Source: Bacillota bacterium (GTDB taxonomy: Bacteria; Bacillota; Sulfobacillia; Symbiobacteriales; ZC4RG38). From it: a stretch of DNA of 32,775 nt. The notes under the pieces are model-generated. The model saw only the letters and a program-made list of their open reading frames with translations. It did no database searches and had not been told where the DNA came from. Shown here one piece after another: positions 7,345 through 27,688 of the stretch. Both the position numbers and the translations under genes were made by a program. Position 1 is the stretch's first letter; each line of letters opens with the position of its first letter. The stretch spans positions 1 through 32,775 of the forward strand of contig JAKKUO010000023.1 of NCBI GenBank assembly GCA_021890795.1. Direction: 5' to 3'.

Positions 7345-7545
7345 TGCCACAACTGCATATGGGCGGGGACAGGTGCCCGCTCTTTGCGGGTGAAAAGGGA
7401 AGTCCGGTGCGCGAGCCTCCTCGCAAGTCCGGCGCGGTCCCGCCACTGTGACCGGGGAATCCCCCTGCAGGATCCCACTGCCGGCCAGGGCCGGTGGGAA
7501 GGGGCAGGGGGGTGAGGATCCGGGAGCCAGGAGACCTGCCTGTCC
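7345..7545 (+). ncRNA. Cobalamin (adenosylcobalamin-type) riboswitch
   Basis: The conserved order is present: AGGTGCCCGC (7371-7380), GGGTGAAAAGGGAA (7388-7401), then GTCCGGTG, GCGGTCCCGCCACTGTGA and finally the B12 box AGCCAGGAGACCTGCC (7525-7540). It lies in the leader of a B12-type ABC importer, the classic target. Binding of coenzyme B12 normally lowers expression. Boundaries are approximate. Confidence 0.95.
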
Positions 7546-7589
7546 CCTCTGCATCGAGCCTCTCGCGGAAGGGGGGAGATGCCAGCGCC

Positions 7590-7802: not shown

Positions 7803-8870
7803 ATGCGGCTCCCCGTTGCAAGCTTAGGACCTTTCGGATCTTTTCCCCGCCTGGCCCGGCTCCTGTCCCGGCTGCTCCTCACTCTGGCCGCCGCGGCCCT
7901 GGTGGCCGGCTGCGCCGCTGGCCCGGGCAGGGGTGCGGCGGACGCCCCGGGAGATGCCGGCGGGTCGGCGGCTCCGGAGCAGGCAGCGCCGGGCACCGGC
8001 GATCAGGGCCCATCCGGCTCCTCCGGCGGGACCGGGGCTGATGAGGCCACCTGGCCGATGACGGTGACCGATGACGCGGGCCGGACGGTGACCATCCCCG
8101 CCGAGCCACGGCGGATCCTCTCCCTCGCCCCATCCAACACCGAGATCCTCTTCGCCCTGGGGCTGGGGGACCGGGTGGTGGGGGTGGACAACTTCAGCGA
8201 CTACCCGCCGGAAGCCGCGGCTCTGCCCCGGATCGGGGACCTGATGAATCCTAACTACGAGGCGATGGCGGCCCTGGCGCCGGACCTGGCCCTGGCCATC
8301 GGCGGCAGCGATGAGGTGTGGAAGAAGCTGGAGGAGCTGGGGGTACCGGTATTGGTGATCCAGCCGCGCACGGTCGCGGAGGTGATCGACTCCATCCGGC
8401 TGGTCGGCCGGATCACCGGGGCTCAGGAGGCGGCCGAGGCCCTGGCCCGGTCGATGGCCGAGCGGGTGGAGGCGGTCCAGCGGCAAGCCGCCGCGCTTTC
8501 CCACCGGCCTCGGGTCTTCTGGGAGGTCTGGGACGATCCCCTGATGTCCGCCGGTCCGGGGTCTTTCTTTGACGACATGATTCGGCTGGCCGGCGGCATC
8601 AACGTGGCCGGCGACGCCCAGAGCCCCTGGCCCCAGGTCAGCCCCGAGGCGATCATCGCCCGGGATCCGGAGGTGATCCTCACCACCCAGGCCGAGTGGG
8701 CGGAGCGGCTCCGGTCCGGTGCCCTGCCCGCCTGGGCCGGAACCACCGCGGTGCGCCAGGGGCGGATCCACGTGGTGGAGGACAACCTGGTCTCCCGGCC
8801 CGGCCCACGGATCGTCGAGGGGCTGGAGCAGGTGGCCCGGGCGATCCAGTCCCAGGGGGCGGGCCGGTGA
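7803..8870 (+). CDS. btuF: Cobalamin ABC transporter substrate-binding lipoprotein (BtuF-like)
   Basis: A 355-residue class III (Fe/B12-type) substrate-binding protein tethered to the outer face of the membrane. The signal peptide ends in lipobox LVAGC with Cys37. A Gly/Ala-rich spacer is followed by the binding fold: VTDDAGRTVTIPAEPRRILSLAPS, then FALGLGDRVVGVDNFSDYP and the long helix linking the two lobes, and near the end VRQGRIHVVEDNLVSRPGPRIVEGLE. The RBS GGAGGG is 10 nt before ATG. The cobalamin riboswitch directly upstream argues for B12 or another corrinoid as ligand rather than iron-siderophore. The stop overlaps the GTG start of the permease gene by 4 bp, so the genes are translationally coupled. 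Confidence 0.92.
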   Translation: MRLPVASLGPFGSFPRLARLLSRLLLTLAAAALVAGCAAGPGRGAADAPGDAGGSAAPEQAAPGTGDQGPSGSSGGTGADEATWPMTVTDDAGRTVTIPAEPRRILSLAPSNTEILFALGLGDRVVGVDNFSDYPPEAAALPRIGDLMNPNYEAMAALAPDLALAIGGSDEVWKKLEELGVPVLVIQPRTVAEVIDSIRLVGRITGAQEAAEALARSMAERVEAVQRQAAALSHRPRVFWEVWDDPLMSAGPGSFFDDMIRLAGGINVAGDAQSPWPQVSPEAIIARDPEVILTTQAEWAERLRSGALPAWAGTTAVRQGRIHVVEDNLVSRPGPRIVEGLEQVARAIQSQGAGR

Positions 8871-9958
8871 GGACCCCGGGTGAGAAGCTCCGGCCCCTGG
8901 CCTTCCTCCCGGCCCGGCTCCGGACGGGTCTCCCGGTCCGGCCCCGGCCCCAGACCCGGCCCCGGACGGTGCTGCTCCTCCTGGCCGGCGCCCTGGTCGC
9001 CGCCGCGGTGGTCGCCGCCTGGGTGGGGCCGGTGCCGGTGCCGCCAAGGCAGATCCTGGCGGGGCTCCTGGGCCAGCCGGTGCCCGCGGCCGTTCATTCG
9101 ATCCTCTGGCGGATCCGGCTGCCCCGGATTCTGCTGGCGGTCCTGGTGGGCGGGGGGCTCGCGGTGAGCGGGGCCGCCCTCCAGGGGCTCCTCCGCAACC
9201 CCCTGGCCGATCCTTACCTCCTCGGGGTCTCCGGCGGGGCCTCGGTGGGAGCGGCCCTGGCCCTCTGGCTCGACCTGCGCTGGGAGTGGGCCGGGGTGGG
9301 GCTGGTGCCGATCCTGGCCTTCGCCGGCGCCCTGGCGGCGGTGGCCCTGATCTGGGGGCTCTCCCGGACCGGGGGGCGGGTGGCGGCCAGCCACCTGGTG
9401 CTGGCCGGGGTGGCGGTGGGGGCGGTCTGCGCCGCGGTCATCTCGTACCTCCAGTCCGTCGGCGACGAGCGGCTGACCAAGGCCCTCCTGTACTGGCTCG
9501 CCGGCGGCCTGGGCTCCGCCACCTGGCAGCACCTGCGCCTCGCCGCACCCTACGTGCTCCTGGGGACGGCGGTGCTCATCTACTTCGCCCGGGACCTGGA
9601 CCTGATGCTCATGGGAGAGGAGGCGGCGGCCCAGGCCGGGGTGAACGTGGAGGCCACCAAGACCTGGGTCTGGCTCGGGGCTTCCCTGGCCACCGCCGCC
9701 ACGGTGGCGGTGGCGGGGCTGATCGGCTTTGTCGGCCTGGTGGTTCCCCACATCCTCCGGCTGGCTCTCGGCCCCAGCCACCGGGTGCTCCTGCCCGCCA
9801 GCGCGCTGGGGGGCGGGCTCCTCCTGCTGGTGGCCGATACCCTGGGCCGGAGCCTCTGGGCCCCCCAGGAGCTGCCCGTCGGGATCCTCACCGGCCTGAT
9901 GGGCGGACCCTTCTTCCTCTGGCTCTTGCGCCGGGAACTGGGGCGGTTCTCCGGGTGA
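8867..9958 (+). CDS. btuC: Cobalamin ABC transporter permease (BtuC/FecCD family)
   Basis: A 363-residue FecCD-family permease forming the homodimeric channel of the importer. The GTG at 8867 overlaps the btuF stop as GTGA, which gives a compact start and a protein of typical length apart from a 30-residue Arg/Pro-rich N-terminal extension. About ten membrane segments are visible, starting with LLLLAGALVAAAVVAAW. Family landmarks are IRLPRILLAVLVGGGLAVSGA, the NPLADPYLLGVSGGAS motif, and the coupling helix region GLIGFVGLVVPHILR near the C terminus, followed by RELPVG-like PQELPVGILTGLMGGPFFLWLL. It works with the ATPase encoded 71 nt downstream. Confidence 0.93.
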   Translation: MRTPGEKLRPLAFLPARLRTGLPVRPRPQTRPRTVLLLLAGALVAAAVVAAWVGPVPVPPRQILAGLLGQPVPAAVHSILWRIRLPRILLAVLVGGGLAVSGAALQGLLRNPLADPYLLGVSGGASVGAALALWLDLRWEWAGVGLVPILAFAGALAAVALIWGLSRTGGRVAASHLVLAGVAVGAVCAAVISYLQSVGDERLTKALLYWLAGGLGSATWQHLRLAAPYVLLGTAVLIYFARDLDLMLMGEEAAAQAGVNVEATKTWVWLGASLATAATVAVAGLIGFVGLVVPHILRLALGPSHRVLLPASALGGGLLLLVADTLGRSLWAPQELPVGILTGLMGGPFFLWLLRRELGRFSG

Positions 9959-10029
9959 CGGTACCCGTTTGGCGGGGGGCCGGGTCCGTGCCCGCGGCTG
10001 ACGGCACCCCCCACCGAGGAGGTGACGGT

Positions 10030-10881
10030 ATGGCGGAACTGGTGGCCCAGGGGCTGACGGTGGATCTGGGGGGACGGCCGGTGCTCCGGGAGGTCTCCTT
10101 CCGGCTGGCCCCCGGCGAGGTGGTCGCACTGGTGGGGCCCAACGGGGCGGGCAAGAGTACCCTCCTCCGCTGCCTGAGCGGCACCCTGCGCCCCGGGGCC
10201 GGGGAGGTGCGGCTGGGCGGGGTGCCGGTCCACCGGCTGCCCCCCGCCTACCGGGCCCGCCGGATCGCGGTGGTGGCCCAGGAACTCCCCGGGGGTTTCG
10301 ACTTCCCGGTGGTAGAGGTGGTGGCCATGGGCCGGTACCCCTACCTCGGCCGGTGGCGCCGGGAGGGCCCCGGGGACCGGGCGGTGGTGGCGGCGGCCAT
10401 GGCGGCCACCGGGGTGGCCCATCTGGCGGAGCGGCCCTTCACCGCCCTTTCCGGCGGCGAACGGCAGCGGGTGGCCATCGCCCGGGCCCTGGCCCAGGAG
10501 CCGGAGTGGCTCCTCCTGGATGAGCCCGCCAACCACCTGGACCTGCACCACCAGGCGGAACTCTTCGACCTCCTGGTCCGGCTGAGTCAGGAGCGGGGCC
10601 TCGGGGTGGTGGCGGTGCTCCACGACCTGAACCTGGCCGCCCTTTACAGCCGCCGCATCCTGATGCTCCATGGGGGGCGTCTGCTCGCCGACGGCCCCCC
10701 CGCCGCCGTCCTCACCCCCCGGCTCCTCCGGGAGGTCTACGGCGACCGGCTGGCGGTGGGCCGCCACCCGGTCCTGGACCGGCCCCTGGTGGCCTTGCTG
10801 CCCGGAACGGGGCCGGAGGCGGTGACGGGTCCCGCCGGCGGGCTCCCGGCGGCCGGGGGCATCGGCACGGGACGGCGTTAG
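10030..10881 (+). CDS. btuD: Cobalamin ABC transporter ATP-binding protein (BtuD-like)
   Basis: A 283-residue ABC ATPase that powers the importer from the cytosolic side. Walker A is GPNGAGKST at residues 36-44, the Q-loop is VVAQEL, the signature is LSGGERQRVAIARAL, Walker B is WLLLDEPANHLD, and the switch His is in AVLHDLNLAA. The family-specific segment VVEVVAMGRYPYLGRW matches Fe/B12-type ATPases. The C-terminal 30 residues are a Gly/Ala-rich tail. ATG at 10030 follows GAGGAGGTG by 6 nt. It is the last gene of the riboswitch-controlled operon and is followed by a strong intrinsic terminator. Confidence 0.93.
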   Translation: MAELVAQGLTVDLGGRPVLREVSFRLAPGEVVALVGPNGAGKSTLLRCLSGTLRPGAGEVRLGGVPVHRLPPAYRARRIAVVAQELPGGFDFPVVEVVAMGRYPYLGRWRREGPGDRAVVAAAMAATGVAHLAERPFTALSGGERQRVAIARALAQEPEWLLLDEPANHLDLHHQAELFDLLVRLSQERGLGVVAVLHDLNLAALYSRRILMLHGGRLLADGPPAAVLTPRLLREVYGDRLAVGRHPVLDRPLVALLPGTGPEAVTGPAGGLPAAGGIGTGRR

Positions 10882-11079: not shown

Positions 11080-11919
11080 ATGCGGGTTGCCCTCTTTGCC
11101 ACGTGCCTTGTGGACATCTTCTTCCCCGAAGTGGGGGAGAGCACCGTCCGGCTCCTTCGCCGGCTTGGGTGTGAGGTGGCGTTCCCGCCCCAGGGCTGCT
11201 GCGGCCAGCCGGCCTGGAACGCCGGCCACCGGGAGGCCGCCGCGGCCATGGCCGAGGGGCTGGTCCGGTCCCTCGGGGGCTACGACTACGTGGTCACCCC
11301 CTCGGGCTCCTGTGCGGCCATGATCCGTCACCACTACCCGGAACTCTTCGCTGACCGGCCTGACCTGGCGGAGGAGGCCCGAGCCCTGGCCGCCCGGACC
11401 TATGAGCTCAGTGAGTTCCTGGTCCGGGTGCTGGGGGCGGACCTCCGGGCCCTGGGCGCCCGGTTCCCGGGGACCGTGGTCTACCACCGGTCCTGCCACC
11501 TGACCCGGGAGCTCGGGGTGCAGGAAGAGCCCCTGGCCCTCCTGGACCAGGTGGAGGGGGTCGAGCGCCGGGAGCTGGAGCGGGCCGATCTTTGCTGTGG
11601 CTTCGGCGGGACCTTCTCGGTGAAGCTCCCCGAGGTGGCGGTGGCCATGGCCGACGACAAGCTGGCGGACGTCCGGGCCACCGGGGCCGAGTACCTGGTG
11701 GGCTCTGATTGCAGTTGCCTGATGCACCTGGCGGGCCGGCTCCGGCGGACCGGCGGCGGCCCCCGGGTGCTCCACCTGGCCGAGCTTCTAGAGATGGCTA
11801 CCCGGCCCGGGGCGTCGCCGCCGGGCTCCGGCGAAGCCAGGGGACGGGCGGCGGCCGGGAGCGTTCCGACCCAGCCCGGGCCAGGGGCCGCCGCGGTCCG
11901 GGAGGGGGATGGCCGATGA
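11080..11919 (+). CDS. lutA: LutA-type lactate oxidation Fe-S subunit (CCG domain protein)
   Basis: A 279-residue member of the LutA/YkgE family, a subunit of the LutABC complex that oxidises L-lactate to pyruvate. Two CCG-type cysteine modules are intact: GCCGQPAWNAGH after ATCLVD, and LCCGFGGTFSVK with a later DCSCLMHL cysteine pair; these ligate an iron-sulfur cluster. About 40 C-terminal residues form a Pro/Ala/Gly tail absent from shorter homologues. The ATG at 11080 has CAGGTGA 9 nt upstream. It overlaps lutB by 4 bp (ATGA). The 198-nt leader holds the btu terminator and a CCCCTGGC/GCCAGGGG hairpin at 10943-10962; I see no convincing promoter. A glycolate or other 2-hydroxyacid role is the main alternative. 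Confidence 0.9.
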   Translation: MRVALFATCLVDIFFPEVGESTVRLLRRLGCEVAFPPQGCCGQPAWNAGHREAAAAMAEGLVRSLGGYDYVVTPSGSCAAMIRHHYPELFADRPDLAEEARALAARTYELSEFLVRVLGADLRALGARFPGTVVYHRSCHLTRELGVQEEPLALLDQVEGVERRELERADLCCGFGGTFSVKLPEVAVAMADDKLADVRATGAEYLVGSDCSCLMHLAGRLRRTGGGPRVLHLAELLEMATRPGASPPGSGEARGRAAAGSVPTQPGPGAAAVREGDGR

Positions 11920-13370
11920 CGTCCCCGGTGCGGGAGCGGACCCGGCGGGAGCTGGCCCAGGAGGCCAAGCGCCGGGCCCTGGCCCAGGCCACCCGGTCCA
12001 GCTACCTCCGGCGCCTCGGCCAGTGGGACCGGCTCCGCCGGGAGGGGAGGCTGCAGCCCCTCCGGGACTGGGCCCGGGACGCCAAGGATCGGGTCCTCTC
12101 GGACCACCGGCGGCACCTGGAGCAGTTCGTTCGGGCGGTCCGGGAGCGGGGCGGCTTTGTGCACGTTGCTGCCACCCCGGAGGAGGCGGTGGCCCGCGTG
12201 GTGGCCATCGCCCGGCGGCACGGGGCCCGGTTGGCGGTCAAGTCCAAGTCCATGGCCACCGAGGAGATCCACCTGAACGCCGGGCTGGAAGCCGCCGGGG
12301 TGGAGGTGGTGGAGACCGACCTGGGGGAGTACATCATCCAGCTGGCCGGGGAGCGGCCGGTGCACATCGTCGGCCCGTCGATCCACTACGACCGGGAGGC
12401 GGTGGCGCGGCTTTTTAGCCGGCACCTGGGTGAGCCGATGCCCCCGGACCCCGAGGCCCTCACCCAGGTGGCTCGCCGGGTGCTGCGGGAGAAGTTCCTC
12501 GCCGCGGAGATCGGCATCACCGGGGCCAACTTCGGGGTGGCGGAGACCGGTACCGTGGTCCTGGTGACCAACGAGGGGAACGGCCGGATGGTCACCACCC
12601 TGCCCCGGGTGCTGATCACAATCATGGGCCTCGAGAAGCTGGTGGGCACCTGGGCGGACCTGGAGCCCCTCCTCACCCTCCTGCCCCGGAGCGCCACCGG
12701 CCAGACCCTCACCAGCTACGTCACCGCGATCACCGGGCCCCGCCGGCCGGGGGAGGCCGACGGCCCGGAGGAGTTCCACGTGGTGATCCTGGATGCCGGC
12801 CGCTCCCGGCTCCTCGGCACTCCCTTCCAGCCGGCCCTCCGGTGCCTCCGGTGCGGGGCCTGCCTCGACGCCTGCCCGGTCTTCCGGCAGGTGGGCGGCC
12901 ACGCCTACCTGCCCCCGTACAGCGGGCCCATCGGCGTGGTGATCACCCCGCTCCTCAAGGGGATGGAGGCCGCGGGGGAGGTGCTGGACCTCTGCAGCCT
13001 CTGCGGCGCGTGTACCGAGGCCTGCCCGGTGCAGATTCCCCTGCACCGCTTCATCCTGGACCTCCGCCATCAGCGGATGGCCTCGCCCCGGGCCTCCCGG
13101 TGGGAGCGGCTTCTCTTCCGGTTTTGGGCCTGGGCCTGGCGAACCCCGGGCCGGTACCGGTGGACCGTCCGGCTCCTCCGGGCCCTCGCCCGCCCCTTTG
13201 TCCGGGACGGGCGCCTCCGCTGGCTGCCAGGGCCCCTGGCCGCCTGGGGGGAAGGCCGGGACTTCCCGGCCCCCGCGGCCCGGCCCTTCCATGAGCGGTG
13301 GGCGGACCTGGCCCGGGAGGCGGAGCCGGAGCGCAACACCGGGGAGGTGGCAGACGGTGGACGGCGCTAG
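11916..13370 (+). CDS. lutB: LutB-type lactate utilization ferredoxin-like protein
   Basis: A 484-residue LutB/YkgF family protein. The N-terminal two thirds are the LUD domain (KSKSMATEEIHLNAGLEAAGVEVVETDLGEYIIQLA, ITGANFGVAETGTVVLVTNEGNGRM in family order). Two 4Fe-4S clusters are supplied by Cys310, 313, 316 and 320 (CLRCGACLDACPV) and Cys360, 363, 366 and 370 (CSLCGACTEACPV). The C-terminal 100 residues are basic and helical. ATG at 11916 overlaps the lutA stop and has GGAGGGGG about 8 nt upstream; longer upstream frame was rejected for this reason. It should pass electrons from lactate oxidation toward the respiratory chain. Confidence 0.93.
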   Translation: MTSPVRERTRRELAQEAKRRALAQATRSSYLRRLGQWDRLRREGRLQPLRDWARDAKDRVLSDHRRHLEQFVRAVRERGGFVHVAATPEEAVARVVAIARRHGARLAVKSKSMATEEIHLNAGLEAAGVEVVETDLGEYIIQLAGERPVHIVGPSIHYDREAVARLFSRHLGEPMPPDPEALTQVARRVLREKFLAAEIGITGANFGVAETGTVVLVTNEGNGRMVTTLPRVLITIMGLEKLVGTWADLEPLLTLLPRSATGQTLTSYVTAITGPRRPGEADGPEEFHVVILDAGRSRLLGTPFQPALRCLRCGACLDACPVFRQVGGHAYLPPYSGPIGVVITPLLKGMEAAGEVLDLCSLCGACTEACPVQIPLHRFILDLRHQRMASPRASRWERLLFRFWAWAWRTPGRYRWTVRLLRALARPFVRDGRLRWLPGPLAAWGEGRDFPAPAARPFHERWADLAREAEPERNTGEVADGGRR

Positions 13371-13962
13371 ATCGGTGCGCCCCCCGGCCTCCGGGGACCT
13401 CGCGGACCGGTTTGTGGCGGCCCTGGGGGAGGTCCAGGGCATCGGCATCCGGGCCCGGGACCCGGGTGAGGCGGTCGCGGCCGTCGTCCAGGCTCTACGG
13501 GAGCGGGGGGTGACGGAGGTGGTGGCCGCGGCCGACCCGATCCTCAGGGCCATCGGGCTGCCGGGCGCGGTCCGGGCGGCGGGGATCGGCTGGTGGGAGG
13601 CGACGCCGGGGGTCGATCCCCAGGCCCTCCGGGCCGCGGCGGCCCAGGCCGGGGCGGGGATCACCGGGGTGGACTGGGCCTTGGCGGCCACCGGCACCCT
13701 GGTGCTCATGAGCCGGCCGGGCCGGCCCCGGAGCCTCAGCCTCCTGCCGCCCCTGCACGTGGCGGTGCTCACCGAGGACCAGCTCTTGCCGGACCTGCCG
13801 GACCTCTTCCGGCACCTGAGCCGGATGGCGTCCGCCGGGGAGATGCCCGGGAGCCTCAATCTTATCACCGGGCCCAGCCGCACCGCGGACATCGAGCATA
13901 CCCTGGTCCGGCGGGTCCACGGGCCGGGGGAACTCCTGGCGGTGGTCCTGCCGGCCCGGTGA
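13357..13962 (+). CDS. lutC: LutC-type LUD-domain protein
   Basis: A 201-residue LutC/YkgG family protein, the third subunit of the lactate oxidation complex. The LUD fold is recognised by GITGVDWALAATGTLVLMSRPGRPRSLSLLPPLHVAVL followed by the C-terminal NLITGPSRTADIEHTLVRRVHGPGEL signature. The GTG at 13357 has GGGGAGGTGG about 7 nt upstream and overlaps the end of lutB by 14 bp; a further GTG at 13375 is possible. The order lutA-lutB-lutC is canonical. No LutR-type regulator or lactate permease gene is seen in the window. Confidence 0.9.
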   Translation: MDGARSVRPPASGDLADRFVAALGEVQGIGIRARDPGEAVAAVVQALRERGVTEVVAAADPILRAIGLPGAVRAAGIGWWEATPGVDPQALRAAAAQAGAGITGVDWALAATGTLVLMSRPGRPRSLSLLPPLHVAVLTEDQLLPDLPDLFRHLSRMASAGEMPGSLNLITGPSRTADIEHTLVRRVHGPGELLAVVLPAR

Positions 13963-14069: not shown

Positions 14070-14098
14070 TTGATGATTGCGCGGCGGGCTGGTATCAT
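14070..14098 (+). promoter_or_regulatory. Sigma-A promoter for the c-di-AMP riboswitch operon
   Basis: TTGATG (14070-14075), exactly 17 nt, TATCAT (14093-14098), in a locally AT-rich stretch. The transcript would start near 14105, leaving room for the whole riboswitch in the leader. Confidence 0.75.
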
Positions 14099-14167
14099 CA
14101 GAGTGTAGAGAGGGGTGGGAAAAGTCCGCATACGAGCGGCGCCCATCCTGCCGCACACGGAGTCGGG

Positions 14168-14197
14168 GGCGGCTGCCCCTCCGGGGGGGCAGCCGCC
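14168..14197 (+). other. Very stable 12-bp hairpin at the 5' end of the leader
   Basis: GGCGGCTGCCCC (14168-14179), loop TCCGGG, GGGGCAGCCGCC (14186-14197), perfectly paired, just upstream of the riboswitch P1 stem. No T-run follows, so it is not a standard terminator; it may protect the RNA 5' end. Confidence 0.6.
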
Positions 14198-14204
14198 GGT
14201 CAGT

Positions 14205-14404
14205 GGCCGCCTGGAATCGCCGAATCCCCTGGTGCCGGGGGAGCGGGGGACCCACACGAATGGGGCGAATTCGGCTCCGGGGCCGAGCCGCCCGGCGCCC
14301 AATGCCCAGGCCAGCCGGTCGGGCGCAGGGTGCCGGGACGAGGCCCGGTGCCGATAGGGCAACCTCCGGTGCCCGAGCCCGTCAGCTAACCTCGCAGGCG
14401 TTGC
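14205..14404 (+). ncRNA. c-di-AMP riboswitch (ydaO/yuaA class)
   Basis: Nearly invariant blocks of the class are present in order: GCGGGGGACCCA (14243-14254), GGGGCGAAT (14262-14270), a long GC-rich variable arm, then CCGTCAGCTAACCTCG (14379-14394). The closing P1 stem is CGCCT (14208-14212) with AGGCG (14396-14400). These match what I recall of the Bacillus subtilis ydaO element. Such switches normally reduce expression when c-di-AMP is bound, and a terminator follows directly. Confidence 0.93.
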
Positions 14405-14429
14405 GGAGGAGGTAGAGGCCGCGGGTGAG

Positions 14430-14455
14430 GCCCCGCGGGTGCCGCGGGGCTTTTT
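14430..14455 (+). terminator. Intrinsic terminator of the c-di-AMP riboswitch
   Basis: GCCCCGCGG (14430-14438), loop GTG, CCGCGGGGC (14442-14450), TTTTT (14451-14455). It lies 88 nt before the first operon gene and is the likely OFF-state structure. GAGGTAG near 14410 can pair with CTAACCTC of the aptamer, a plausible antiterminator. Confidence 0.88.
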
Positions 14456-14543
14456 CTGTCCCCGTGGCCGGGCGTCCGCCTCCCTCCCGGGAGCCCGGTC
14501 GCTGCCCGCTCCCGTGTGCAGGGGCAAGAGGGAGGGAAGTGCC

Positions 14544-15782
14544 ATGGCGGTCGTGCGTTCCGCCCGGGGGCTGCGCCCCCACCCGTTGCGCCCCCTGGAG
14601 CCCCGGGCCGGTGCCGGCCCCGTTGCGGTCCTGGGGGCCGGCCACGGGGGGCTCGCCCTGGCCGGGTACCTGGCTGCCCGGGGGGTGCCGGTGCGCCTGT
14701 GGAACCGGTCACCGGCTCCCTTGGCGGCGGTCGAGGCCCAGGGCGGGATCCTGCTGGAGGTCCCGGAGGAGGACGGCCCCGTCCGGGTCCGGCCCCGCCG
14801 GGTCTCCTGCGACCTGGGGGAGGTGGTCCGGGGCGCGGAGGCGATTCTGGTGGCGGTGCCGGCCAGCGCCCACCGAGAACTGGCCCGGCGGCTGGCCGGC
14901 CATCTCCAGGACGGCCAGGCGGTGCTGCTGCTGCCCGGCCGCACCGGCGGCGCCCTGGAGTTCGTCCGGGAGCTGGACGCGGCGGGGTGTTCCGCCCGGG
15001 TGCTGGTGGGGGAGGCCCAGACCTTCCCCTTCGCCAGCCGGACCCTGGGGCCCGGGGTGGCGGCGATCCTGGGGGTGAAGCGGACCGTGCCTGTCGCGGC
15101 CCTGCCAGCCCGGCGCACCCCGGAGCTCATCGCCCTTTTCCGGCCGCTGCTGCCGATGCTGGAGCCGGCCCCGTCGGTTCTCCACACTTCCCTGGAGAAC
15201 ATGGGCGCGGTCCTGCACCCGGCCATCACCCTGCTGAACGCAGGTCGGATCGAAGCGGGACCCGGCTTCCGGTTCTACGCCGAGGGAGTCACCCCCGGGG
15301 TCGCCCGGGCTGTGGCCACGGTGGACGGGGAACGGCTGGCGGTGGCCCGGGCCTTCGGCACCCCGGTCCGCTCCCTGCTGGAGTGGCTGCGGGATGCCTA
15401 CGGAGGGGCTCCCCCTGACCCCTGGGGCGAGGAGCCGGCGGGCGGGCTGGCGGAGGCGTGGGGAGCAGAAGCCGCGGCCTTGCAGGCCGCGCTCGCCCGC
15501 AACCCCGCCTATGCCGACATCCTCGCTCCCCTGAGCCTGGACCACCGGTACCTCTGGGAAGACGTCCCCACCGGGCTCGTGCCCCTTGCCGCCCTGGGCG
15601 CGGCGGCCGGGGTGGAGACGCCGGCCATCTCCGGGCTGGTGCACCTCGCCGCCAGCCTCCACGGCCGGGACTACGCAGCCCAGGGCCGGACTCTTGCCCG
15701 GATGGGGCTGAGCGGCCTCGGGCCCGACGAGATCCTTACTTTTGTGATGGAGGGGAGTGTGGCCGGTTGCGCGACCGCCTGA
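14544..15782 (+). CDS. NAD(P)-dependent opine dehydrogenase family protein
   Basis: A 412-residue member of the octopine/nopaline dehydrogenase family. The N-terminal Rossmann fold carries VLGAGHGG (Gly31, Gly33, Gly36). The C-terminal helical domain shows the opine-dehydrogenase signature ENMGAVLHPAITLLNAGRIE, whose His-Pro is the family catalytic region. Opine dehydrogenases reductively couple an amino group to an alpha-keto acid, or run the reverse; related proteins also act on other imines and hydroxyacids, so the substrate is unknown. ATG at 14544 has GAGGGAGGG about 8 nt upstream. It is the first gene behind the c-di-AMP riboswitch, and its end overlaps the next gene by 16 bp, so it should be produced together with the B12-dependent and AsnB-like proteins. 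Confidence 0.82.
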   Translation: MAVVRSARGLRPHPLRPLEPRAGAGPVAVLGAGHGGLALAGYLAARGVPVRLWNRSPAPLAAVEAQGGILLEVPEEDGPVRVRPRRVSCDLGEVVRGAEAILVAVPASAHRELARRLAGHLQDGQAVLLLPGRTGGALEFVRELDAAGCSARVLVGEAQTFPFASRTLGPGVAAILGVKRTVPVAALPARRTPELIALFRPLLPMLEPAPSVLHTSLENMGAVLHPAITLLNAGRIEAGPGFRFYAEGVTPGVARAVATVDGERLAVARAFGTPVRSLLEWLRDAYGGAPPDPWGEEPAGGLAEAWGAEAAALQAALARNPAYADILAPLSLDHRYLWEDVPTGLVPLAALGAAAGVETPAISGLVHLAASLHGRDYAAQGRTLARMGLSGLGPDEILTFVMEGSVAGCATA

Positions 15783-17491
15783 TCCTGGGTGCGGCCATCG
15801 GGGACTGCGTCCACGTGGCCGGTGTGGTCAACTTCCTCCGGCTGGCCGAGGAGGTCGGCTTCCAGACGGTGATGCTGGGGCCGGCGGTGCCGGTGGCGGA
15901 CCTGATGGCGGCCATCGATCAGTATGACCCCCGGGTGGTGGCCGTGGGCTACCGGCTCACCCCGGAGGCGGCCCGGGGGGTCCTGGCAGAACTGAAGGCG
16001 GCCCTGGCGGCCCGGGGAGAGGTGGATCCGGCCACCGGCCTTGGCCGGCGGGTCTGGCTTTTCGGAGGCACGGGCCCCACCGCGGCGGTGGCCCGGGAGG
16101 CCGGCCTCTTCCACCACGTCTTCGAGAGCGCCGATGGTCCCCGGGAGGCCCTGGCCTGCCTCCGGCGGCTGGCCGGCGGCGAGGGGGAGGAGACGGACCG
16201 GGCGGAGGGGATCCCGCCCCAGACCCTGGTGGAGCGGATCCTCTGGAAGGCGCCGTACCCGCTCCTCCGGCATCACTACGGCCGGCCCACCGTGGCTGAA
16301 ACCGTGGCCGGGGTGGTGGAGATCGCCCGGTCGGGGGTGCTGGACGTCATCTCCCTGGGGACCGACCAGAACGCCCAGGAGCACTTCTTCCGGCCGGAGG
16401 AGATGGACCCGTCCCAGGACGGGGCGGGCGGGGTGCCGGTCCGGACCCGGGAAGACCTGGAGCAGATCTACGCCCACAGCCGGCTGGGGAACTACCCCCT
16501 CATGCGGTGCTACAGCGGCACCCGGGACCGCTTGATGTGGGCCCCGCTGCTCCTGGAGACCATCCGGAACGCCTGGCTGGCCACCCCCCTCTTCTGGTAC
16601 AGCCAGCTGGACAACCGCAGCCGGGTGCCCCTGCGGGAGTCGATCCCCGAGGCCCAGCAGGTGATGGCCTGGCACGCGGAGCGGGGGATCCCGGTGGAGA
16701 TGAACGAGTCCCACCACTGGAGCCTCCGGGATGCGCCGGACGTGGTGGCGGTGGTCGCGGCCTACCTGGCGGCGTACAACGCCCGGGCCGCGGGGGTGCG
16801 GGACTACGTGCAGCAGCTGATGTTCAACAACCCGCCGGGCACCTCGCCCACCATGGACCTGGCCAAGATGCTCGCCAAGCTGGAACTGGTGGAGTCCCTG
16901 GCCGGGCCGGACTTCCGGGTCTGGCGGGAGACCCGGGGAGGTCTCACCTCCTTCCCTGCGGACCTGGACGTGGCCCGGGGCCACCTGGCGGCTACCACGT
17001 ACCTGCAGATGCAGCTCCGGCCCCACATCGTCCACGTGGTGGCGGCGGTGGAGGCCCACCACGCCGCCACCCACGAGGACGTCATCGAGAACTGCAAGAT
17101 CGCCGACGGGGCCATCCGCCAGGCCCTGTTGGGCATGCCGGATATGACCCGGGACCCGGCGGTCCAGGAGCGGAAGCGGCAGCTGCTGGAGGAGGCCAGG
17201 GTGCTCTTGGCCGCGATCCGGCGCATCGCCCCGCCGGGGACGCCCGACCCCTACACCGACCCCGAGACCCTGGCCCGGGCGGTGGAGATCGGCCTTCTCG
17301 ATGCCCCCCACCTCCGGGGAAACCCCGCGGCCTGCGGGCGGGTCGTCACCCGGATGGTGGACGGCGCCTGCGTGGCGGTGGACCCGGCGACCGGCCGGCC
17401 GCTCCGGGAGGAGGAGCGGGTGGGCCGGATCCTCCGGGAGCACGGCTACCCGCCGGTCGCCGACAGCACGCCGGTGGAGGTGGGGGTCTGA
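15767..17491 (+). CDS. Cobalamin-dependent mutase-like protein (N-terminal B12 domain, C-terminal barrel)
   Basis: A 574-residue protein. The TTG at 15767 is chosen because GGAGGGG lies about 11 nt upstream and the B12 domain begins at once. Residues 1-135 look like a cobalamin-binding Rossmann domain similar in style to glutamate mutase S: LGAAIGDCVHVAGVVNFL, GFQTVMLGPAVPVADLMAAI, VAVGYRLTPE. The ligand motif reads D13-C-V-H16-V-A-G19, one residue longer than the usual D-x-H-x-x-G. Residues about 165-480 look like a TIM-barrel catalytic domain (GVLDVISLGTDQNAQEHFF, PLMRCYSGTRDRLMWA, VEMNESHHWSL, FNNPPGTSP), distantly like the GlmE and lysine/ornithine aminomutase alpha barrels. A carbon-skeleton or amino-group migration is inferred, not shown. 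It is translationally coupled on both sides. Confidence 0.7.
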   Translation: MRDRLILGAAIGDCVHVAGVVNFLRLAEEVGFQTVMLGPAVPVADLMAAIDQYDPRVVAVGYRLTPEAARGVLAELKAALAARGEVDPATGLGRRVWLFGGTGPTAAVAREAGLFHHVFESADGPREALACLRRLAGGEGEETDRAEGIPPQTLVERILWKAPYPLLRHHYGRPTVAETVAGVVEIARSGVLDVISLGTDQNAQEHFFRPEEMDPSQDGAGGVPVRTREDLEQIYAHSRLGNYPLMRCYSGTRDRLMWAPLLLETIRNAWLATPLFWYSQLDNRSRVPLRESIPEAQQVMAWHAERGIPVEMNESHHWSLRDAPDVVAVVAAYLAAYNARAAGVRDYVQQLMFNNPPGTSPTMDLAKMLAKLELVESLAGPDFRVWRETRGGLTSFPADLDVARGHLAATTYLQMQLRPHIVHVVAAVEAHHAATHEDVIENCKIADGAIRQALLGMPDMTRDPAVQERKRQLLEEARVLLAAIRRIAPPGTPDPYTDPETLARAVEIGLLDAPHLRGNPAACGRVVTRMVDGACVAVDPATGRPLREEERVGRILREHGYPPVADSTPVEVGV

Positions 17492-19038
17492 TGGGCGGCA
17501 TCGCCGGCGCCGTGGTGGAGGCGGAGGGGGCGGCGCCGCCCGTTCGGGTCTCCGTCGATGCCCTCCTGGACGCCATGCCCTGGCGGGGGCCTGCCGGCCG
17601 GGGCCGGTTCGAGGGCCCCGGGGGCGGCCTCGGCCATCTGCTGGTGGCGGCGGACGGCCTGCCGGCGGGCCATCCGCCGGTCTCCAACGAAGACGGGACT
17701 CTCTGGGCCGTCCTCGACGGCAGGCTTCTCAACCGTGGGGAGCTACAGGCCCGGCTCCGGGGCCACCGGCTGCGCACGGGCGCCGACGCCGAGGTGGTCC
17801 TGCACCTCTACGAGGAGGAAGGCCCCCGGTGCCTCCGGTGGCTCCGGGGCACCTTCGCCTTGGCCGTCTGGGACCGCCGGGGGCGGATCTTCCTCGCCCG
17901 GGACCCCCTGGGGGTAAAGCCCCTCTACTGGGCCCGGGGGCCCGGGGGGCAGGTGCTGTTCGCCTCGGAGATGAAGGCCCTCCTGGGGGTCACGGACCAG
18001 GTGGAGGAGTTTCCGCCGGGCCACTGGTACCGGACCGGGGCGGGGCTCCACCGCTGGTACCGGTGGCCCCGGAGCCCGGGGCAGCTCCGGGACCCGGCGG
18101 CGGCCATCGCCCTGGTGCGCCGGCGGCTGGTGGAGGCGGTGGACCGGTGCCTCGCCGCCCCGGTGCCCGTGGGGGTCTTCCTCTCCGGCGGCCTGGACTC
18201 CAGCCTGGTGGCGGCGGTGGCCCGGCGGCTTGCCGGGCCGGGGCTGAAGACCTTCGCCGTGGGCATGGCGGGATCGCCGGACCTGGCCATGGCCCGGCGG
18301 GTCGCGGCCTACCTCGGCACCGACCACTACGAGTACGCCTACACCCCGGCAGAGGTCCGGGCGGCGCTGCCCCGGGTGATCGACCACCTGGAAAGCTTTG
18401 ACGTGCCCCTGGTGCGGAGTGCCGTCGGCACCTACTTCGCCGCGGCCCTGGCCAGCCGGCATGTGCAGGTGGTCCTCACCGGGGAGGGGGCCGACGAGCT
18501 CTTCGCGGGCTACCACTACCTGAAGGGGCTGCCGGGCCCGGCGGACCTGGGGGCGGAACTGCGGCGGATCACCCGGGGGATGCACAACACAGGCCTGCAG
18601 CGGGTGGACCGGGAGACCATGGCCCACGGCCTGGAGGCCCGGGTGCCCTTCTTGGACCTGCCGCTGGTGGAGGCCGCAGCGGCCATCGACCCAGCCATCC
18701 TGCTGGGCCCTGACGGGCAGACGGAGAAGTGGCTCCTGCGCCGGGTGGCTGAGGAGTTCCTCCCGCCGGAGATCACCGGCCGGCGGAAGGAGAAGTTCTC
18801 CCTGGGCACCGGCACCGGCCAGTACCTGGAGCGGCTGGCGGAGGAGCTTATCTCCGACGGGGACCTGGAGCGGGAAGGGGCGCTGCCCTCCGGCGGCCGG
18901 GTCGGAAGCAAGGAGGAACTCCTTTACTGGCGGTACTTCCGGGACCGGTACGGCCGGCCCGGGGTGGTCCGGAGTATGGGCCGGAGCCGGACTATCGGCG
19001 ACCTGGACCCCAATCCGGCCGGGTGGCGGTCCGCCTGA
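17491..19038 (+). CDS. Asparagine-synthetase-like amide ligase with inactive glutaminase domain
   Basis: A 515-residue AsnB homologue. The synthetase domain is intact: PP-loop SGGLDSS at residues 232-238, ESFDVPLVRSAVGTYFAAAL, LTGEGADELFAGY at 329-341, and VDRETMAHGLEARVPFLD. It should activate a carboxylate as acyl-AMP. The N-terminal Ntn-hydrolase fold is still recognisable (LARDPLGVKPLYW), but it begins MGGIAG, so the catalytic Cys after Met is Gly, and the glutamine-binding NGEIYN is replaced by DGRLLN. It therefore probably uses free ammonia or another amine, or closes a ring as beta-lactam synthetase and CarA do. Its ATG overlaps the previous stop by one base (TGATG), with GGAGGTGGGGG upstream. 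It is the last gene of the riboswitch operon. Confidence 0.88.
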   Translation: MGGIAGAVVEAEGAAPPVRVSVDALLDAMPWRGPAGRGRFEGPGGGLGHLLVAADGLPAGHPPVSNEDGTLWAVLDGRLLNRGELQARLRGHRLRTGADAEVVLHLYEEEGPRCLRWLRGTFALAVWDRRGRIFLARDPLGVKPLYWARGPGGQVLFASEMKALLGVTDQVEEFPPGHWYRTGAGLHRWYRWPRSPGQLRDPAAAIALVRRRLVEAVDRCLAAPVPVGVFLSGGLDSSLVAAVARRLAGPGLKTFAVGMAGSPDLAMARRVAAYLGTDHYEYAYTPAEVRAALPRVIDHLESFDVPLVRSAVGTYFAAALASRHVQVVLTGEGADELFAGYHYLKGLPGPADLGAELRRITRGMHNTGLQRVDRETMAHGLEARVPFLDLPLVEAAAAIDPAILLGPDGQTEKWLLRRVAEEFLPPEITGRRKEKFSLGTGTGQYLERLAEELISDGDLEREGALPSGGRVGSKEELLYWRYFRDRYGRPGVVRSMGRSRTIGDLDPNPAGWRSA

Positions 19039-19339
19039 GCCGGGTTGGGTTCCCCCGGCCCGGCTCTGCGGCGCCCTGGGGCGGAGGGTACGGATCCTAT
19101 CGGGCCCACCGCACACCTTCCGGAAAGGTGGCGGTGGGCCCGAATGCTGTGTGCGGACCCGGGTCGGAAGCCATGGCACCGGCGCTGTAGCACTGGCGCC
19201 GGCTCTGGAGCCTGCGCGGCTCCCTCCCTGGAAAGGGGTCGCCGGGCGGGGCGGCAGGGACGCGCCGGTCGGCGGCGCGGCAGGGATTCGCCGGCAGGCG
19301 GGGAAATTGTCATTTTGTATCGCTAATGAGGTGATCCGG
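19039..19339 (+). other. 301-nt intergenic region between the AsnB-like and methyltransferase genes
   Basis: It holds the large hairpin at 19101-19142, smaller stems such as GGAGCC/GGCTCC near 19205, and an AT-rich stretch (19303-19327) just before the methyltransferase. TTGTCA at 19305 might be a -35, but I see no matching -10. No coding sequence is supported. Confidence 0.5.
19101..19142 (+). terminator. Long hairpin after the c-di-AMP operon
   Basis: CGGGCCCACCGC (19101-19112) plus CACCTT pair with AAGGTG and GCGGTGGGCCCG (19131-19142): 18 pairs with a single bulged A and a CCGGA loop. It ends without a T-run, so it may block read-through or stabilise the mRNA 3' end. Confidence 0.55.
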
Positions 19340-24489: not shown

Positions 24490-24530
24490 TAAGAGCAGGA
24501 CAATTTCATCCTGCATAACAGATCCCGTGA

Positions 24531-24633
24531 CCGCTGGGGGAGTCGCGAGCCCTTCGGGGCAGGGCGGCTGAGAACCGGGGCCAACCCCGGGACCCCTGAA
24601 CCTGATCCGGGTCATGCCGGCGTAGGGAAGCGG
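24531..24633 (+). ncRNA. TPP (thiamine pyrophosphate) riboswitch
   Basis: The closing stem is CCGCT (24531-24535) with AGCGG (24629-24633). Conserved blocks are CTGAGA (24568-24573), CTGAACCTGAT (24596-24606) and CATGCCGGCGTAGGGAA (24613-24629). Elevated TPP normally turns the downstream gene off, and a terminator follows. Confidence 0.97.
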
Positions 24634-24671
24634 CGAGCGGAGAACACCTTCCGAACGAATGAAGGGAGACC

Positions 24672-24701
24672 CGCACCGCGGCCCGGCCGCGGTGCGTTTT
24701 T
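24672..24701 (+). terminator. Intrinsic terminator of the TPP riboswitch
   Basis: CGCACCGCGGC (24672-24682), loop CCG, GCCGCGGTGCG (24686-24696), TTTTT (24697-24701). It is 102 nt before thiT and completes the transcriptional OFF switch. Confidence 0.92.
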
Positions 24702-24802
24702 GCTACCGGCCCGCGGCTTGCGGCGCGCCCCTCGGCCACCGGTGCCCCCGGGTCGCTCCTGACCCCCGTGGCGGCCACCTGGGAACAAAGGAGGTCGGTC
24801 CC

Positions 24803-25333
24803 ATGGCGCTGCGCCTCAACACCCGGGCCGTCGTCGAGTCCGGCGTCGCCCTGGCCCTGGCCTATGTGCTTTCGGAGATTAAGGTCTACCAGATGCCCCA
24901 GGGCGGCGATGTGACCGCCGGCGGCATGCTTCCCATCATCTTCATCGCCCTTCGCCACGGCACCGCGGCCGGGGTCCTGGCGGGGCTGGGCCTGGGCCTT
25001 CTGAAGCAATTCCTCGGTGGCTACGTGGTCCATCCCGTCCAGGCGATCCTGGACTACCCTCTGGCTTTTGCCCTGCTGGGCCTGGCGGGTCTTACCCCCC
25101 GGCACCCGTGGCTGGGCACCTTCATCGGGATGTTCGGCCGCTTTGTCTCCCACGTCATCTCCGGGGTGATCTTCTTCACAGAGTACGCCGGCGGCCAGAA
25201 TGTCTGGGTCTACTCGATCTTGTACAACGGTACCTTCATGCTGCCCGAGCTGATCGTGGGCATGGTGCTCCTCACCCTGCTCTTCCGCCACCCGGCGCTG
25301 CGGAGCCTCGCCCAGCGGCAGCGGGAGGCCTGA
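24803..25333 (+). CDS. thiT: Thiamine ECF transporter S component (ThiT-like)
   Basis: A 176-residue membrane protein of the ThiT family, the substrate-capture subunit that binds thiamine and docks on a shared ECF energy-coupling module (EcfA/A'/T, not in this window). About six hydrophobic segments are visible, from VVESGVALALAYVLSEIKVY to ELIVGMVLLTLLF. Family marks are the N-terminal YQMPQGGDVTAGGMLPIIFIALRHG stretch (membrane loop 1) and the conserved GRFVSHVISGVIFFTEYAGG with VWVYSILYNGTFMLPE near the C terminus, which form the thiamine pocket. ATG at 24803 has AAAGGAGGT 7 nt upstream. The TPP riboswitch in the leader supports thiamine as ligand. Confidence 0.93.
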   Translation: MALRLNTRAVVESGVALALAYVLSEIKVYQMPQGGDVTAGGMLPIIFIALRHGTAAGVLAGLGLGLLKQFLGGYVVHPVQAILDYPLAFALLGLAGLTPRHPWLGTFIGMFGRFVSHVISGVIFFTEYAGGQNVWVYSILYNGTFMLPELIVGMVLLTLLFRHPALRSLAQRQREA

Positions 25334-25386: not shown

Positions 25387-25495
25387 CGCGTCTCGGGCTC
25401 CGTCGCATCCCTGCCGCCTCTGCCCTTTCCCCGGCCAGGAGGCATAACCTGTCCCCTGCCGCGTACCCATGTGAATGCGGACAGGGGGTGAGGCG

Positions 25496-26509
25496 GTGAC
25501 GGACTGGTTGCGCTACCTGGCGGCGGGGCTCAGGGAGCCGGTGGGGACTGCCGCCGGGCTTCTCCTCCCCGGCCCCGAGGAGATCCGGCTCCGGGCCGGG
25601 CGGCCGGTGGAACTCATCGGCCCGGGTCGGTCCGGCTTTGTCACCCCCGCCGGGGAGTTGACGGAGGAACCCGGCCGGGCGCTCAGAGCGACTCCTTCCG
25701 ATGTGGCCACCACCTTTCAACTGGTCTGCCAGGGGTCGGTGTACGCCTGGGAGGAGGAGCTTCGGGGCGGCTTTGTCACCCTGCCCGGCGGCCACCGGGT
25801 GGGTGTCGCCGGCCGCGCGGTGGTGGAAGGGGGGCGGCTCCGGACGGTGCGGCCGGTGGCCAGCCTCAGCCTCCGCATCGCCCGGGCGCTCCCCGGCGCC
25901 GCCCGGGGGCTTCTGCCCCACCTGGTGACCGGCGGCCGGCTCCTCTCTACCCTCCTGATCTCCCCGCCCCAGGCGGGGAAGACCACGCTCCTTCGGGACC
26001 TGGTCCGGCTCGCCTCCACCGGGGACCCCGCCGCCGGGCTGCGGCCCCAGAAGGTGGCGGTGGTGGACGAGCGGTCGGAGATCGGCGGCTCCGCCGGCGG
26101 GGTCCCGACCCTGGACCTCGGCCCCCGGACCGACGTCCTGGACGGCTGCCCCAAAGCGGAGGGGATGCTCCTGGTGATCCGGGCCCTCTCCCCGGAGGTG
26201 GTGGCGGTGGATGAGCTGGGCCGGGACGAGGACGCGGGGGCGGTGCTGGAAGGGCTCCTGGCCGGGGTGACGGTCCTGGCCACCGCCCATGCCGGCTCCC
26301 TCGACGAAGCCCGGCGCCGGCCCTCCCTCCGCCGGCTGCTGGCCCAGGGTGCCTTCGCCCGCGCGGTGCTCCTCAGCCGGCGGCTCGGCCCGGGCACCGT
26401 GGAGCAGGTCTGGCGGCTGCCCGAGGGGGAGCCCCTGCTCCGGGGGACCCTGGCCCCGAGGGACCGGAGGGGCAGCCGGCAGGAGGGGTGGGCATGTGGG
26501 CCAAGGTGA
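25496..26509 (+). CDS. spoIIIAA: Stage III sporulation protein AA (ATPase)
   Basis: A 337-residue ATPase of the SpoIIIA-SpoIIQ channel that links mother cell and forespore; it resembles type II/IV secretion ATPases. The GTG at 25496 is preferred because GGGGGTGAGG lies just upstream; the in-frame ATG at 25475 lacks such a site. The N-terminal domain has EEIRLRAGRPVEL; the Walker A is PPQAGKTT with Lys162 (Ser in place of the usual leading Gly), followed by KVAVVDERSEIGG and the Walker B-like VVAVDELGRDED, then TAHAGSLDEARRRPS with the conserved His. It is the first of eight tightly packed genes. A sigma-E promoter is expected, but only a poor -10-like CATAACCT near 25443 is visible. Confidence 0.93.
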   Translation: MTDWLRYLAAGLREPVGTAAGLLLPGPEEIRLRAGRPVELIGPGRSGFVTPAGELTEEPGRALRATPSDVATTFQLVCQGSVYAWEEELRGGFVTLPGGHRVGVAGRAVVEGGRLRTVRPVASLSLRIARALPGAARGLLPHLVTGGRLLSTLLISPPQAGKTTLLRDLVRLASTGDPAAGLRPQKVAVVDERSEIGGSAGGVPTLDLGPRTDVLDGCPKAEGMLLVIRALSPEVVAVDELGRDEDAGAVLEGLLAGVTVLATAHAGSLDEARRRPSLRRLLAQGAFARAVLLSRRLGPGTVEQVWRLPEGEPLLRGTLAPRDRRGSRQEGWACGPR

Positions 26510-27006
26510 TCGGGGCCCTGCTGGTCACCGGCGCAGGGGCCGGGGTGGGGTGGCAGCTGGCCCAGCCCCTCTCCCGGCGGCCGGAGGAGCTACGGCAGAT
26601 CCAGGCGGGCCTCAGCCTCTTGGAGACGGAGATTGGCTACGGGGCAGTGCCCCTGCCCGAGGCCCTGGGCCGGGCCGCAGCCGCCGGCGGGGCTGCCCGG
26701 CGGCTCTTCGGCCGGGCCGCCGCGGCCTGCGACCGGGCGGAGACCCCGGCGGCGGCCCTGCAGATGGCCCTTGGGGCCTTCTGGGCCGGATCCGCCCTGG
26801 CTCCCCCGGATCGGGAGGCCCTGGCCGGACTCGCCGCGGTGCTGGGGGCTTCGGACCGGCAGGACCAGATCCGGCACCTCCGGCTCTGCCGGGAGCGGCT
26901 CCGGGCGGCGGAGGCCGCCGCGGAGGCGGACCGCCTGCGGTACGAGCGGCTTTACCGGCACCTGGGACTGCTGGGAGGGCTGGCGGCGGCCATTCTGCTG
27001 CTGTAG
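26494..27006 (+). CDS. spoIIIAB: Stage III sporulation protein AB
   Basis: A 170-residue membrane-linked protein, GspF-like in the channel model. ATG at 26494 is 5-6 nt after AGGAGGGG and overlaps the spoIIIAA end by 16 bp. One N-terminal membrane segment (VIGALLVTGAGAGVGWQLA) and one at the C terminus (LGGLAAAILLL) flank a helical cytosolic region with RPEELRQIQAGLSLLETEIGYGAVPLPEAL, the family hallmark. Position between AA and AC is canonical. Confidence 0.9.
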   Translation: MWAKVIGALLVTGAGAGVGWQLAQPLSRRPEELRQIQAGLSLLETEIGYGAVPLPEALGRAAAAGGAARRLFGRAAAACDRAETPAAALQMALGAFWAGSALAPPDREALAGLAAVLGASDRQDQIRHLRLCRERLRAAEAAAEADRLRYERLYRHLGLLGGLAAAILLL

Positions 27007-27078
27007 GGTTTCTGCCTGCTACCGGGAGGCTGCCCGGAGGATCCCGGGGCGGGATCCGGCGAGGGGGGAGGCGGGCCG

Positions 27079-27276
27079 GTGGACGTCTCGGTCATCATGC
27101 GCATCGGGGCGGTGGGCATCCTGGTGGCCGCGCTGGTGGTGGTGCTGAAGCAGGCCGGCCGGGAGGAGCACGGGCTGATGGTCACCATTGCCGGGGTGGT
27201 GGTGGTGCTCCTGATGGTGATGTCCATGGTCGCCCGGTTCTTCGAGACGATGAAGACCATCTTCTTTCTCTACTAG
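27079..27276 (+). CDS. spoIIIAC: Stage III sporulation protein AC
   Basis: A 65-residue integral membrane protein. GTG at 27079 follows the purine-rich GAGGGGGGAGG. Two hydrophobic helices (IGAVGILVAALVVVLKQAG and the VTIAGVVVVLLMVMSMVARF segment) are separated by the polar REEHGLM turn, the typical AC layout. It pairs with AD as small membrane subunits of the channel base. Confidence 0.92.
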   Translation: MDVSVIMRIGAVGILVAALVVVLKQAGREEHGLMVTIAGVVVVLLMVMSMVARFFETMKTIFFLY

Positions 27277-27290
27277 CGGGAGGGACCGCG

Positions 27291-27677: not shown

Positions 27678-27688
27678 GGAGGGTGGCC

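Follow-up and report, generated by a model that had tools for sequence, protein, structure and literature searches.

A three-gene operon located behind a c-di-AMP (ydaO/yuaA) riboswitch was analysed in the genome of a Bacillota bacterium (assembly GCA_021890795.1), within a stretch of 32,775 nucleotides of contig JAKKUO010000023.1 which is referred to as the window. The operon encodes an opine-dehydrogenase family protein (ODH), a glutamate-mutase-like adenosylcobalamin mutase (MUT), and an AsnB-like amide ligase (ASN). It is likely to direct the biosynthesis of a small organic compatible solute under repression by c-di-AMP, with the chemistry proposed below. What can be read from sequence only is that the cassette lies under a riboswitch for an osmotic signal, c-di-AMP, and that it is linked to osmotic-stress genes. 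On these grounds, a role of the product as a solute for osmotic adaptation appears quite likely, and the exact ODH/MUT/ligase chemistry is put forward tentatively. Somewhat favored, at a lower confidence than the solute role, is the broader reading that the product represents a new class of compatible solutes, opine-derived, B12-rearranged, and often amidated, made by an old multiphylum and archaeal cassette which is c-di-AMP-gated in Bacillota.

The Operon and Its Leader

The features of the operon are collected in Table 1. ODH and MUT share 16 nt, the start codon of MUT is TTG, and MUT and ASN overlap by 1 nt, in agreement with the three overlapping genes of the original prediction. The inverted repeat 3′ of the operon lies near the end (19142) of the region marked at that time.

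Table 1: Features of the riboswitch-controlled operon (positions in the window).
Feature	Position	Strand	Evidence
Sigma-A type promoter-like site, TTGATG-17-TATCAT, extended -10	14070..14098	+	Consensus match only
c-di-AMP (ydaO/yuaA) riboswitch aptamer	14208..14415	+	RF00379, 65.6 bits, gathering threshold 38
CCUCGC on the 3′ side of the aptamer, candidate antiterminator partner of GUGAGG (14425-14430)	14390..14395	+	By eye
Intrinsic terminator of the riboswitch	14427..14455	+	12-bp hairpin, then T5, -23.4 kcal/mol
ODH, opine-dehydrogenase family protein, 412 aa	14544..15782	+	PF02317, 140 bits; CENDH 1bg6, E 3.5e-73
MUT, glutamate-mutase-like adenosylcobalamin mutase with fused N-terminal B12 domain, 574 aa	15767..17491	+	Pfam, conservation, AlphaFold2 model
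ASN, AsnB-like amide ligase, Cys2 to Gly, 515 aa	17491..19038	+	Pfam Asn_synthase; Cys2 survey
Long inverted repeat (TCGGGCCCACCGC ... GCGGTGGGCCCGA) without T-run, 3′ of the operon	19100..19143 (about)	+	Read from sequence

The match to RF00379, obtained by Rfam covariance search, is full length (E 3e-13) and contains a long variable insert. Its score is well above the gathering threshold, like those of known ydaO/yuaA switches, and the ydaO-class aptamer originally claimed is therefore upheld. A further covariance model (R1) gives 100.2 bits for the same aptamer, which is itself one of the sequences from which R1 was built. The sigma-A promoter claimed upstream was also recovered, with 9 of 12 consensus positions matched and TG ahead of the second hexamer; one such site was found against a shuffle mean of 0.0. 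The terminator, too, is present as predicted, the hairpin spanning 14427-14453 and the T-run 14451-14455. A simple terminator scan overlooked it, the probable reason being that part of the U-tract is paired in the stem. Hairpins with a T-run occur in 14 of 19 related leaders.

An intrinsic terminator downstream of the aptamer is a feature shared with OFF switches. Since ydaO/yuaA is known as an OFF-switch class and a terminator is present, the same OFF logic would be expected in the host, and the window operon would be read through when c-di-AMP drops. The candidate antiterminator pairing between CCUCGC and GUGAGG was drawn by eye and is not the minimum-energy fold; it may act in a manner similar to the mechanism described in PMC9337991. 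The host genome contains three matches to DAC-domain c-di-AMP cyclase genes, one of them weak. Its second ydaO element precedes a CAP/SCP-domain-like protein (identified by eye), which looks like a conventional kind of ydaO target. The window operon differs from known ydaO/yuaA switches in its target, as ODH-MUT-ligase operons are absent from the literature searched, the original target surveys being outside that search.

Conservation of the Cassette

A MUT search yielded 80 loci from many bacterial phyla and from archaea. Phyla carrying the cassette are Bacillota, Bacteroidota, Ignavibacteriota, Planctomycetota, Armatimonadota, Acidobacteriota, Gemmatimonadota, Spirochaetota, Actinomycetota, Deinococcota, and Myxococcota, together with two archaea of the methanogen group; phyla were assigned from record titles and relationships from a quick MUT tree. 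ODH adjoins MUT in 77 of the 80 loci, so that the expected conservation of the cluster is confirmed; the two genes are on the same strand in 76 loci and overlap or are at most 10 nt apart in 51. Of 398 evenly drawn genomes of the host's phylum, 85 contain MUT, and the neighborhoods of 78 canonical loci of this phylum were examined. ODH adjoins MUT in 74 of them, and one of the remaining four has the order ODH-ligase-MUT on one strand within ~3 kb. The two locus sets partly overlap, some genomes having been sampled by both. Gene calls in the relatives are mechanical open reading frames, and neighbor families are profile matches only. Because the same arrangement is repeated in dozens of other genomes, that of the window is far beyond chance. 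ODH and MUT form a near-invariant core, with an amide ligase as a frequent but variable third step.

The riboswitch is likewise a recurrent companion of the cassette. Rfam scans placed ydaO upstream of it in 13 of 18 loci. A covariance model built from 14 elements and run on the phylum loci detected 38 elements at 36 of the 78 loci, and the first cassette gene behind them is ODH in 32 cases, an ATP-grasp gene in 4, and ASN in 2. As the background is only 76 elements in 61 phylum genomes (about 1.25 per genome), about 0.01 elements within 600 nt upstream would be expected by chance across the 78 loci, against the 36 loci observed. In two related genomes, L078 and L134 (both Tepidanaerobacteraceae-like), ASN and ODH-MUT are each preceded by a ydaO leader of their own, and ASN is therefore tied to the same regulon; at L134, a hairpin with a T-run follows each leader. 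Neither ydaO nor a detected ligase is near the cassette in 31 of the 78 phylum loci, some of which are obscured by contig ends. In the cassette loci scanned outside Bacillota, no ydaO was found nearby except in one unclassified MAG. On the quick MUT tree, the ydaO label changes at least three times on well-supported branches.

A tandem pair of ydaO aptamers precedes ODH at L076 (6503-6893, on the contig of L147), an arrangement which could possibly form a cooperative or digital c-di-AMP switch.

Enzymes of the Core

The Octopine_DH score of ODH is above the family cut-off of 30 bits. ODH shares this domain with the octopine/CENDH-type opine dehydrogenases (1bg6, 3c7a), and when cassette relatives and CENDH are aligned, the His-Pro at H225 shows no variation and is found in CENDH as well. 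The cassette family differs in carrying a PGRT motif where CENDH has PGAT and in its partnership with MUT.

MUT matches the Pfam B12-binding domain and, weakly, Met_asp_mut_E (17.8 bits, below the cut-off of 26.6, which a few relatives exceed). In an AlphaFold2 model obtained from 51 relatives (mean pLDDT 91), the TIM barrel is best matched by glutamate mutase E (1cb7_B, Z 33.3, rmsd 3.2, 377 residues), followed by lysine 5,6- and ornithine 4,5-aminomutase and then by methylmalonyl-CoA mutase. The B12 domain retains the cobalt-ligand His16 in 50 of the 51 sequences and Gly19 in 49, as in glutamate (methylaspartate) mutase MutE/MutS (GlmE/GlmS). In contrast to that enzyme, the B12 domain of MUT is in the same chain, the identity is about 14%, the partner is an opine dehydrogenase, and Cys replaces the usual Asp of the lower-ligand motif in 48 of 51, giving CxHxxG instead of DxHxxG. 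The substrate-binding arginines are also apparently replaced, since matching of strands in order by hand, on the predicted model, places H170, Q204, and Y278 at the arginine claw of glutamate mutase (R66, R100, and R149). An hhalign alignment of MUT with GlmE was weak (probability 11%), probably misregistered, and was dropped for this mapping. Five other arginines of MUT (R168, R247, R284, R321, and R390) show little or no variation, and together with the hand mapping this would suggest an acidic substrate, probably not plain glutamate.

An aminomutase-type PLP lysine was looked for in residues 1-150, where no lysine is present in more than half of the 51 sequences. The absence of a conserved PLP lysine favors a carbon-skeleton rearrangement. 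The assignment of MUT as a PLP aminomutase of the lysine 5,6- or ornithine 4,5-type was rejected given a B12 domain without that lysine, and its assignment as an ordinary glutamate mutase was rejected because of the weak Pfam score and the apparently changed binding residues. A diverged paralogue of MUT provides one more likeness to glutamate mutase, as it is fused to the reactivase of that enzyme, MutL/GlmL, in proteins of 1214-1233 aa (L202 1739-5383 and L203 3862-7563). These fusion genes adjoin distant opine dehydrogenases and constitute a second, uncharacterized ODH-mutase system.

The Amide Ligase

The synthetase domain of ASN contains an SGGLDSS loop, as does asparagine synthetase B (1ct9), and has E. 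coli AsnB as its closest match (E 2e-73). ASN scores above the cut-off of TIGR01536 (336.9 versus 267.1) and below that of PRK09431 (455.7 versus 499). It differs from asparagine synthetase B at the catalytic Cys2, which in the N-terminus MGGIAG is Gly. The original prediction of a glutaminase-dead AsnB accordingly holds for the window protein but not as a general trait, since cassette relatives either keep Cys2 (e.g., Thermoanaerobacter) or have Ala, Ser, or Gly in its place. Outside Bacillota, the glutaminase domain is shortened in many members. Judging by the loss of Cys2 in several lineages, glutamine may not be the essential donor, and ammonia or another amine probably takes this part.

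In the pathway of N-acetylglutaminylglutamine amide (NAGGN), an AsnB-like ligase produces an amide osmolyte. The NCBIfam model trio_amidotrans scores ASN at 211.9, under its cut-off of 570, and that pathway involves neither ODH nor MUT.

Nor is AsnB a universal member of the gene set, as it is absent from some loci or apparently replaced by an ATP-grasp ligase. In such loci, a protein resembling D-Ala-D-Ala ligase (Ddl-like), below the NCBIfam Ddl cut-offs, takes the place in the operon. Its gene is first at L022, L039, L055, L071, L158, L164, L167, and L174, some of which are the same genomes sampled twice, and last at L182 and L195. The two ligases were not found together in any phylum-sample locus, where about 1.8 joint cases would be expected by chance, and mutual exclusion of ASN and the ATP-grasp protein is therefore suggestive only. 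Only divergent operon members were counted; the Tepidanaerobacter ddl at L128 is a true Ddl (450 bits versus 262) and was discarded. Of nine genomes checked, six encode another full-length AsnB, so that ASN is an extra copy there; in the window's genome, ASN is the sole full-length AsnB found. The view that ASN is a housekeeping AsnB which merely happens to be nearby was rejected as a general reading in light of these six genomes and of its own ydaO leader in L078 and L134.

In Methanoculleus (L074, 9629-10873, minus strand), a different ATP-grasp protein (ATPgrasp_Ter), convergent with ODH-MUT, is possibly another ligase substitute.

Osmotic Neighbors in Lineages without ydaO

Where the riboswitch is absent, several cassettes adjoin genes of osmotic stress. 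Trehalose-6-phosphate synthase genes are present as full OtsAB at L047, OtsA domains at L030 and L079, and an OtsAB relative at L065. MscS channels occur at L044, L047, L049, and L065, MscS-like membrane proteins at L070 and L073, and a K-Cl cotransporter homologue at L044, L047, and L049. A P-type cation ATPase is near MUT in 11 loci, including L006, L008, L021, and L030. These loci are partly dependent, several of the Bacteroidota with MscS and the K-Cl cotransporter being related and several of the ATPase loci belonging to one genus. Separate lineages with osmotic neighbors are Myxococcota (L030), Ignavibacteriota (L079), Vermiphilus (L070), and Spirochaetota (L073). Many non-Bacillota cassette loci have no osmotic gene adjoining. 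The idea of a compatible solute advanced in the original prediction gains support from these ydaO-less lineages, but the suggested product (an amidated beta-amino acid or opine-like molecule) and the order of the steps found no such support.

Two unannotated multipass membrane genes by the cassette (P0004 and P0007) resembled cation:proton antiporters by eye only and, having no family match, were not counted. A MarC-family membrane protein is encoded downstream on the same strand at L027, L030, L052, L062, L068, L069, and L081, which belong to different phyla, and in most of these seven loci its gene is directly 3′ of ASN. We know of no established function of MarC; the protein could serve to export the cassette product or provide a channel for it.

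Proposed Pathway and Alternative Explanations

Best supported is an osmolyte pathway under the control of an OFF switch. In the proposed mechanism, high c-di-AMP, when there is no osmotic distress, would let the aptamer permit the terminator, and transcription would stop; a fall in c-di-AMP would lead to read-through. ODH would then reductively couple an amino acid and a 2-oxo acid to an imino-diacid (opine), and MUT, as an adenosylcobalamin radical mutase of glutamate-mutase fold, would catalyze a carbon-skeleton rearrangement of either the amino acid or the opine. The AsnB-like ligase, or elsewhere the Ddl-like ATP-grasp protein, would amidate a carboxylate. An opine is a net-negative imino-diacid, so that amidation of one carboxylate would give a net-neutral zwitterion, as compatible solutes usually are. 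The reactions, the sequence in which they occur, and the role of the product as a solute are all deduced, and we know of no compound needing all three activities.

An alternative product would be an unusual amino acid or cross-link block for the wall or envelope, with c-di-AMP control serving wall homeostasis. The ydaO class also controls wall proteins, the other element of the host precedes the CAP/SCP-domain-like protein, and the Ddl-like partner in several loci leaves a wall role possible. This alternative is nevertheless considered unlikely, as the two archaeal loci and Bacteroidota carry the cassette without muropeptide genes alongside, the neighbors are trehalose synthase, MscS, and ion transporters, the Ddl-like proteins fall under the Ddl cut-offs, and the window ligase is AsnB-like.

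The genes could also serve amino-acid catabolism, with MUT as a variant of glutamate mutase, which is classically fermentative and closest to it in fold, ODH acting oxidatively on an opine or amino acid, and AsnB handling the released ammonia. The genes were, however, assigned to no known unrelated catabolic pathway, and the conserved core was seen to contain neither methylaspartase nor any other gene of fermentation. Opine dehydrogenases are biosynthetic as a rule, the glutamate-binding arginines are apparently not kept according to the hand mapping, and shut-off by c-di-AMP together with a separate ydaO before ASN is ill-suited to catabolism, which makes this explanation quite improbable. 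In other bacteria, opine metallophores (e.g., staphylopine) are products of opine dehydrogenases, and it might be envisaged that the cassette yields a metallophore, a signalling molecule, or another secondary metabolite under incidental c-di-AMP control. The lack of any further biosynthetic gene or exporter recurrent in the conserved core and the distribution over many phyla and archaea, in about one-fifth of the phylum's genomes, are more like primary metabolism and render this reading very improbable.

The compatible-solute reading has a partial precedent in the ablA/eam osmolyte genes. Their route uses radical-SAM/PLP 2,3-aminomutases, unlike the B12 mutase and opine dehydrogenase of the cassette. 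The common element, proposed in the case of the cassette, is riboswitch control over a rearrangement that turns an amino acid into an osmolyte or its precursor, ablA being under c-di-AMP and Na+ riboswitches (PMC9337991). In the literature searched, the original ydaO target surveys being outside its scope, no paper linked the ODH, MUT, and ligase genes to each other or to osmolytes, and nothing relevant connected opine dehydrogenase with a compatible solute, methylaspartate mutase, or a c-di-AMP riboswitch. It is unlikely that the pathway has been characterized elsewhere, and a prior mention of the gene association in the ydaO surveys is possible. To our knowledge, neither an opine dehydrogenase nor a coenzyme-B12 radical mutase belongs to any other osmolyte route. 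If the solute reading is true, an undescribed osmolyte pathway is present in roughly one-fifth of the genomes of one phylum and in representatives of many others, c-di-AMP gains a direct biosynthetic target, the glutamate-mutase superfamily gains a new substrate, and a new natural stabilizing solute is added. Named sequenced strains with the cassette, such as Thermoanaerobacter wiegelii Rt8.B1, make the question testable at once; Caldanaerobacter subterraneus is another laboratory organism that carries it.

Other Features of the Window

A Cobalamin riboswitch (7354-7557, plus strand, 117.6 bits) lies upstream of a Peripla_BP_2 binding protein (7803-8870), and an ABC-transporter ATPase frame (9286-10881) is found in the same region. 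Together these probably make up an operon for the uptake of B12 or a corrinoid, located a few kb away from the B12-dependent MUT. Directly upstream of the ydaO operon, genes for CCG-domain, LUD/4Fe-4S, and LUD-domain proteins (11080-13962, plus strand) form a LutABC-like lactate-utilization operon. Farther downstream, a TPP riboswitch (24526-24645, plus strand) precedes a YuaJ-family thiamine transporter (24659-25333), and spoIIIAA and spoIIIAE (25475-29020, plus strand) represent stage III sporulation genes in the host.
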